DNA of 64,000 bases from an uncultured Poribacteria bacterium (GTDB lineage: Bacteria > Poribacteria > WGA-4E > WGA-3G): NCBI GenBank assembly GCA_951828385.1, contig OX639973.1, positions 1,978,470 to 2,042,469 on the forward strand. Reading direction: 5' to 3'. Below, piece by piece: positions 4,757 to 39,482 of this stretch. Under the pieces are notes generated by a model, which made no database searches, was not told where the DNA came from, and saw nothing but the letters and a program-made list of their open reading frames with translations. How positions within the stretch are numbered: position 1 is the stretch's first letter; each line of letters opens with the position of its first letter. The position numbers and the translations under genes are program-made.

Positions 4757-4953
4757 GTTCGTAGTAGTGCGATTTTTGCGGCGTACTTGAAGAAACACCC
4801 CAGCAAAAACCCCAGATGCGACGTGCATCGCGGCGTACTCGCCCAAATTTTGCCCACACGCGGCAAAATTTGTCTTTGCTTTACATTTGCGATCTGCCTT
4901 ATCGCACGTTCCAATATTAACAACGGGCAATGAATGGTTTCCCTACTACGAAC
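4757..4953. repeat. Composite dispersed element with GTTCGTAGTAG inverted ends
   Basis: The gap between the PhyH and sulfite-oxidase genes is filled by a 197-bp block ending in GTTCGTAGTAG (4757-4767) and its complement CTACTACGAAC (4943-4953). Inside lie two diverged copies of the 32-bp unit beginning TGCGGCGTAC (from 4777 and from about 4829). The second copy is itself split by a small palindrome, ATTTTGCC...GGCAAAAT. The right flank ATCGCACGTTCC recurs after the unit at 37226. Open frames here are chance. Confidence 0.75.
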
Positions 4954-6888: not shown

Positions 6889-7056
6889 GATTTCTCCTTG
6901 TCCTGCTGTTTTGAATAGGATTGTAGCAGAAGTTACGAGTTCGTGTCAATATAAAATTCAGTTGATTTTGGCAAAGAAATATGCTATGTTGATTATAATT
7001 CCATAGGATCAATCTAAAAAAGACAGTCTTGCCCGAGGTCCGGTAGGTGCGGTTTG

Positions 7057-7173
7057 ATGAAGTTTAAGAAAATATTTCGGTAATTCTACGTCTTCTGCAG
7101 ACCCGGTAGGTTCGGTTTCCTAACCGAACCGGGCTTCACCAAAAAATTACCGAATTAAAAAATTAATCTTCAT
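7057..7173. mobile_element. MITE-like element, copy 1 (117 bp)
   Basis: Its ends are imperfect inverted repeats: the left 29 bp (starting ATGAAGTTTAAG) and the complement of the right 29 bp (starting ATGAAGATTAAT) match at 22 of 29 positions. A second copy at 37111-37268 has exactly the same left 29 and right 28 bp but a different interior. The element sits between the arms of another palindrome (GGTGCGGTTT on the left, GGAACCGCACC on the right). Its own interior is a further palindrome, CCGGTAGGTTCGG...CCGAACCGG, at 7103-7132. No transposase is encoded. Confidence 0.7.
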
Positions 7174-7226
7174 GGAACCGCACCGGATTTTAGGAGAACC
7201 GCCGTACAGCCCTAAATGGGTTTTTA

Positions 7227-37031: not shown

Positions 37032-37110
37032 TGGGCAGACCTCAAACGCTCAGGAGTGACGTTACAACGATAGCGATAACAATTTATTAGACCTTCGCTG
37101 GCGGGGTCTC

Positions 37111-37268
37111 ATGAAGTTTAAGAAAATATTTCGGTAATTGACAGGCAATAAATTGCCCTACTACAAACGGTCAGGTTCGTAGTAGGGCGATTCTGCGGTG
37201 TACTCACCCAAATGCGAAGTGCATTATCGCACGTTCCGACATTACCGAATTAAAAAATTAATCTTCAT
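37111..37268. mobile_element. MITE-like element, copy 2 (158 bp)
   Basis: Left 29 bp and right 28 bp are identical to those of the copy at 7057-7173. It too sits between palindrome arms (GGCGGGGT on the left, AACCCCGCC on the right). The interior differs: TTGCCCTACTAC / GTAGTAGGGC (about 37153-37188), then a 32-bp unit TGCGGTGTAC...GTGCATT (37194-37225), then ATCGCACGTTCC, the flank also seen at about 4901. It fills most of the gap 37032-37333. Confidence 0.72.
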
Positions 37269-37333
37269 CCAACCCCGCCTACCGACAACAGATAACTGAT
37301 AACTAAACACCATCAACCAAAGGAAACGAACCC

Positions 37334-39072: not shown

Positions 39073-39368
39073 ATAGGTGTCAATTTTAGAAAAATGACCG
39101 CCTCCGCCCCCGGCCCGGTAGGTTCGGTTTTGCGGTGTACACACCCAAATGCGATCTGCATTCCTAACCGAACCGGATACTACGCGGAAACCTTGAAGAC
39201 TCCAAAAACCTCTTTAGTCCCGTAGGGTTTATTTGCTTGGGTATTTCTTCAGTATCTATGTAGGACCGTGTTTGCCCGAGACTCCTTAGCCCCGTAGGGG
39301 CGGCATCTGGCGGCATCTATAGAGACAGTCCTCCGAAATACCATGAAAATCGCTAAATTGACACCTAT
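39073..39368. mobile_element. 296-bp composite element with ATAGGTGTCAATTT inverted ends
   Basis: Ends ATAGGTGTCAATTT (39073-39086) and AAATTGACACCTAT (39355-39368) are perfect 14-bp inverted repeats, flanked by exact 20-bp direct repeats (39053-39072 and 39371-39390, offset by GA on the right). Inside are a filled palindrome with the 32-bp unit (39115-39176) and two hairpins of the CCCGTAGGG type (about 39216 and 39288). No open frame of note. It lies in the 624-bp gap between hsdM and the inserted defence genes. Confidence 0.65.
39115..39176. repeat. Palindrome filled with a 32-bp unit
   Basis: Arms CCGGTAGGTTCGGTTT (39115-39130) and CCTAACCGAACCGG (39163-39176) are separated by exactly 32 bp (39131-39162) starting TGCGGTGTAC and ending GATCTGCATT. 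The identical arms occur at 7103-7132 with nothing between them. Confidence 0.85.
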
Positions 39369-39450: not shown

Positions 39451-39482
39451 TGCGGCGTACTCGCCCAAATGCGACCTGCATT
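39451..39482 (+). repeat. Stand-alone 32-bp unit
   Basis: TGCGGCGTAC...ACCTGCATT, 32 bp, same orientation and length as the units at 37194-37225 and 39131-39162, differing from them at only a few bases. It lies 50 bp upstream of the promoter of the TPR-PIN gene. Confidence 0.8.

Follow-up and report, generated by a model that had tools for sequence, protein, structure and literature searches.

The window analysed here, a stretch of 64,000 nucleotides (64 kb), belongs to the 6.66-Mb, single-contig genome of a sponge-associated member of Candidatus Poribacteria; all features given with window coordinates are on its forward strand. At 39115–39176 a palindrome is split by exactly 32 bp (39131–39162), as an earlier note on this DNA had reported. 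The left arm (39115–39130) is GTAG-tagged, belongs to the target class called A below and ends in TTT, and the right arm follows at 39163–39176, both delimited from sequence. The symmetric core of the palindrome is GGTTCGGTT-TCCT-AACCGAACC, the unit entering after the first loop base. The same arms form an empty, uninterrupted class A palindrome at 7103–7132, recognised by sequence and fold, and here too the coordinates and sequence given earlier were borne out; a filled counterpart of this block lies at L134:3798.

Within the filled site, hairpin 1 (39131–39147), TG-c-GGTG-TACA-CACC-CA, has a bulged C, and hairpin 2 (39148–39162) reads AATGC-GATCT-GCATT; both are supported by DNA folding and by covariation, at unit positions 6/13 and 18/32, respectively. 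The filled palindrome as a whole folds as DNA into an outer stem of 9 bp that encloses the two internal hairpins, forming a three-way junction (z −3.7).

Further copies lie in the same window. The one at 37194–37225, previously placed in the middle of another palindrome, does sit there, with a class B REP (GGGCGATTC^ATCGC) holding it in its loop. This copy is the innermost of four nested levels: an outer hairpin (GGCGGGGT...AACCCCGCC, 37100–37279), empty at the orthologous locus of G019 (L220), surrounds a MITE-like element (37111–37268) that holds a class B REPIN, which in turn holds the unit. At 39451–39482 the unit reported earlier is present, but no palindrome is centred there; it is preceded by AATCCGTGATT in a class C context (AATCCGTGATT^CAGACAA), with an interrupted copy in ortholog L205. 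The supposedly diverged pair at 4777–4900 does consist of two units, now seen to be in tandem within one class B REP loop and each split by a further insert: the first (4777–4829) carries GAAGAAACACCCCAGCAAAAAC inside hairpin 1 and the second (4830–4900) is interrupted in hairpin 2. Apart from the two orthologous comparisons, these assignments derive from the nucleotide sequence.

Sequence, structure and copy number of the unit

The unit is non-coding and follows the 32-bp consensus TGC-GGYG-TACN-CRCC-CA-RATGC-GANNT-GCATY. Searching with this consensus (≤3 mismatches) recovered at least 120 copies genome-wide, 68 forward and 52 reverse, while the consensus read backwards gave no match under the same conditions. 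The window contained three consensus matches, against none in 100 dinucleotide shuffles. When a public genome collection was searched, every one of the matches listed came from Candidatus Poribacteria.

Two adjacent hairpins with covarying stems make up the unit. Among 214 matches to a loose pattern, a few of them chance matches, pair 6/13 was C-G in 151 and T-A in 48, and pair 18/32 was A-T in 146 and G-C in 51. In an alignment of 36 distinct sequences built from observed copies, 98.7% of stem cells pair; double-change cells numbered 20 versus 6.1 in shuffles and were confined to two unit pairs. A search for known structured RNAs gave no Rfam match in the window at the gathering threshold.

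Target sites

Insertion occurs 3' of TT(T/C), adds exactly 32 bp and neither removes nor duplicates target sequence. With tandem pairs left out, position −2 was T in 164 of 167 copies and position −1 was T or C in 166 of 167. There are four main target classes, and for every one of them this genome also contains exact empty forms: class A, GGTTCGGTTT^CCTAACCGAACC; class B, GTAGTAGTGCGATTC^ATCGCAC and variants; class C, AATCCGCGATT^CAGACAA; and class D, AAACTAACAGTTT^ATGCTAC. Filled copies and empty ones also have longer repeat backgrounds in common.

The preference for palindrome centres proposed in the earlier note was upheld by the genome-wide search. A stem of at least 7 bp flanked the junction in 87 of 182 copies (48%; the copies are non-independent and involve 14 arm sequences), versus 3.6% of control sites, these being intergenic TTT/TTC/ATT sites. 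Base pairs crossing the junction in RNAfold minimum folds proved too permissive a measure of hairpins (control mean 6), and the strict stem measure was used instead. Classes C and D (∼22% of copies) and several singletons have no simple central stem. Palindrome centres are strongly preferred, not obligatory, and the preceding TT(T/C) is nearly universal.

None of 104 copies in this genome lies within a long ORF, as would be expected if the unit inserted at many kinds of site and were retained only where an intergenic hairpin stayed intact. We regard this explanation as very improbable: selection of that kind is hard to reconcile with a T at position −2 in 98% of copies or with the excess at stem centres over intergenic TT controls, and REPs are unlikely to be essential. 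As a separate observation, a 429-aa ORF takes its last residues from the unit at L052:4902–4933 (the same locus as L343 of G062), which lies near the 3' end of that reading frame.

Orthologous filled and empty sites

Orthologous filled/empty pairs were found at four loci, including the reported site, where L205 (G015) carries the empty palindrome, lacking the unit, between near-identical flanks. At locus L003, a single-copy hairpin (GCGCGGTT..AACCGCGC) between convergent genes has no insert in 19 congeners, whereas six genomes carry one, a pure unit in this genome and interrupted units in the five others. A tree built from five segments places every filled genome inside one clade, and every scored genome outside it is empty, so that insertion is the derived state. 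Some empty genomes also fall inside the filled clade, and these need loss, gene-tree error or transfer. A second hairpin locus, L007, is empty in three genomes, filled in four, and holds a remnant of the unit's hairpin 2 in G015. At the G002 locus, a filled site aligned against empty G010 and G029, and the same empty form was visible in other relatives.

Movement of the unit is well supported. These orthologous pairs, together with the enrichment at stem centres, back the earlier idea that a mobile unit enters the loops of hairpins, with the qualification that the preference is not absolute.

Other inserts in hairpin loops

The unit is not the only insert of this kind. A palindromic, MITE-like element of ∼120 bp (ATGAAG...CTTCAT) was found in nine copies, with stems of at least 6 bp in 9/9 against 8% in the control. 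These copies lie in the window at 7040–7190 and 37100–37279 and at L183, L156, L181, L189, L177, L182 and L184. Both window copies hold a REP or REPIN inside; the first, a ∼117-bp element at 7057–7173, lies within an outer class A palindrome, in its loop, and is itself centred on the empty palindrome. REP loops are also occupied by a second family of short inserts, GTTTTTGCTTGGGTRTTTCTTC (for example in GTAGGAGCGAGT^..GTCGCTCGCGA), which nests in itself; there is one copy in the window (39229–39249), missing from ortholog L205, and 44 copies in the loci examined. Its boundaries are uncertain and a crude stem measure gave no clear stem enrichment for its copies, but this ∼22-bp unit probably also enters hairpin loops.

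We tentatively suggest that the lineage may have one general means of admitting several unrelated small elements (the 32-bp unit, the ∼120-bp element and probably the ∼22-bp unit) into hairpin loops, guided by structure and a short motif and producing nests of several levels. If true, elements as small as 32 bp would be inserted by shared machinery under the guidance of structure.

The same observations could be read without any dedicated enzyme, as replication template switching or gene conversion copying loop contents between hairpins; within repeats, conversion of short tracts can look like insertion. Several unrelated inserts do occupy loops, at different hairpins and sometimes at the same orthologous one, and nesting and partial remnants such as L297 would also fit. 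Yet the arms are unrelated, the many contexts share only a short TT-containing motif, the 32-bp boundaries are constant and the orientation is fixed, and we consider such exchange a rather doubtful account of the unit.

Distribution in Poribacteria

A first search matched 34 of 60 relatives, all in the genus. Restriction to one genus was ruled out with a covariance model, which found at least 85 copies in G062, from another genus of the family, and one in G069. With this model the unit was detected in all genus members tested but one, other family members tested had none, and the order yielded two weak single hits. The targets in G062 are other palindromes, such as CCCCCGCTTT^GCGGGGG, with an empty form nearby. 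One genus member, G028, whose genome is a single contig, has no unit at all and offers a useful comparison.

RAYT and candidate enzymes

The earlier note had proposed a search for a RAYT gene, and both a RAYT and its REPs were found. Among 12 Y1_Tnp matches in this genome, one (P0001) is a RAYT, scoring 93 bits against a curated cutoff of 80; its motifs NHYH and YIHYNP fit subclass 2.8 of PMC6006769. P0001 has class B repeats on its flanks, together with a copy filled by the unit, and its relatives in five other genomes are likewise flanked by class B repeats. Since class B repeats flank the RAYT in all six genomes, class B is most likely the REP of this RAYT. The unit occurs near the RAYT in two of the six, within the flanking class B REPs.

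Two side observations concern this family. L196:10282–10884 is a complete REPtron, in which a RAYT is accompanied by about ten class B REPs/REPINs, some of them arranged as tandem repeats of ∼86 bp. A second RAYT, at G000:C1:1235078–1235491 (L291), is flanked by GTAGGAGCGAGC..GCTCGCGA palindromes, which we take to resemble Pseudomonas REPs.

The flanking of the RAYT by class B repeats would suit a history in which the unit entered few REPs and nearly all copies arose as the RAYT moved REP and unit together. Unit subtypes correlate with target class, so that many copies may have spread inside REPs and independent insertions are far fewer than copies. Moreover, at the class B locus L183 the whole REP is missing from about 20 relatives, so that REP and unit may have arrived together. 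Such passive carriage is nevertheless an unlikely origin for most copies, given that some insertions lie in hairpins other than GTAG-tagged REPs; for two of these, empty forms exist at the orthologous site. The P0001-type RAYT is also absent from G018, G032 and G062, in which no P0001 match was found and each of which has at least 74 units.

More generally, RAYT presence showed no correspondence with unit number, and Y1 genes are nearly universal, unit-free genomes included, which makes their association with the unit uninformative; in these comparisons no enzyme tracked the unit. Resident IS200/IS605 ends were rejected as a source, the IS200 left end being unlike the unit. No replication-strand bias of the units was detectable (Fisher p 0.34, skew weak). 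The RAYT or IS200/IS605 route suggested earlier is no more than a candidate. A RAYT and REPs are present, but the unit carries neither GTAG nor free cleavage sites, is unlike the ends of resident IS200, is abundant in genomes lacking the P0001 RAYT and shows no detectable replication-strand bias.

Discussion

We consider the 32-bp unit likely to be a tiny mobile element, built of two hairpins, that prefers hairpin loops and TT(T/C) targets, a confidence that applies to the element and not to the enzyme. It inserts precisely 3' of TT(T/C), mostly where the TT stands at the top of the 5' arm of a hairpin already present, whether a REP sequence, a single-copy intergenic hairpin or another palindrome. 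With a fixed orientation and neither loss nor duplication of the target, the stem is kept and the hairpin becomes a three-way junction. We infer that the element or its target may be recognised as folded single-stranded nucleic acid; the form we favour is single-stranded DNA at hairpins, joined by a trans-acting enzyme, perhaps a Y1 (HUH) transposase. As to mechanism, a Y1 single-strand route is put forward tentatively. Replication template switching or conversion seems less probable, and an RNA route less probable still, on a par with any mechanism other than these three.

At 32 bp the unit ranks with the smallest mobile DNA elements so far described. Elements of the IS200/IS605 family enter 3' of a short motif without duplication, and the unit is like them in its insertion 3' of TT(T/C)^ with no target duplication; it differs in being 32 bp long and non-coding and in having a hairpin 2 that ends at the last base, with no free cleavage sites. 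The ends TGCGG/GCATT are not inverted and there is no target duplication, unlike MITEs. The commonest targets look like REPs of the REP/REPIN-RAYT systems (PMC3116915, PMC3733652, PMC6006769), whereas the unit itself has GTAG at neither end, starts with TGCGG and has two hairpins rather than one, and is an insert, not a REP. Insertion at palindromes is also known from IS elements that target REPs (PMC1525189).

The closest descriptions are of still other short repeats. Elhai and colleagues are said to have described, in 2008, cyanobacterial SDRs of 21–27 nt with covarying hairpins, nested in repeats and in themselves. A route in which folded RNA enters RNA loops and is copied to DNA was reportedly proposed in that work. 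The SDRs of Nostoc and relatives, like the unit, are dispersed, multi-copy, non-coding and very short, have hairpin structure backed by compensatory changes, and lie inside other repeats and nested. By description rather than sequence, the unit differs in its 32 nt, two hairpins, other phylum and hairpin-loop targets with a TT(T/C) rule. The 2008 paper (Genome Res 18:1484) is cited in PMC4390886 and PMC3116915, and SDR5 sits precisely within the HIP1 palindrome (PMC4390886). Mitochondrial double-hairpin elements and GC clusters are likewise short, mobile, hairpin-built and intergenic, merging and nesting (PMC4478555; PMC2800124). The unit shares two adjacent hairpins with the double-hairpin elements, those of Paquin et al. 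2000 as cited in PMC4478555; it differs in lying on a bacterial chromosome, in its defined hairpin-loop target motif and in having insertions polarised by orthologs.

RNA mechanisms have been suggested for the mitochondrial hairpin elements (PMC4478555). The resemblance of the unit to these and to SDRs, together with its covariation-conserved structure and conserved loops, could point to folded RNA inserting into RNA loops and then being copied back to DNA. A consistent sense-strand rule is missing, however: sense:antisense was 47:19 in this genome versus 18:28 in other genomes, opposite trends for which a transcription-strand rule was rejected. An RNA route thus appears unlikely to us, and the mobile hairpin-loop element that we favour would more probably move as single-stranded DNA.

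How gene-less elements of a few tens of bases move has been a question since the cyanobacterial SDRs and the mitochondrial hairpin elements. Here, one genus with tens of genomes offers defined boundaries, empty sites at orthologous loci, a rule for target choice and a family of candidate enzymes, making DNA, RNA and replication models testable. For its hosts, the unit adds structure to REPs and terminator-like hairpins, and could alter transcript ends.
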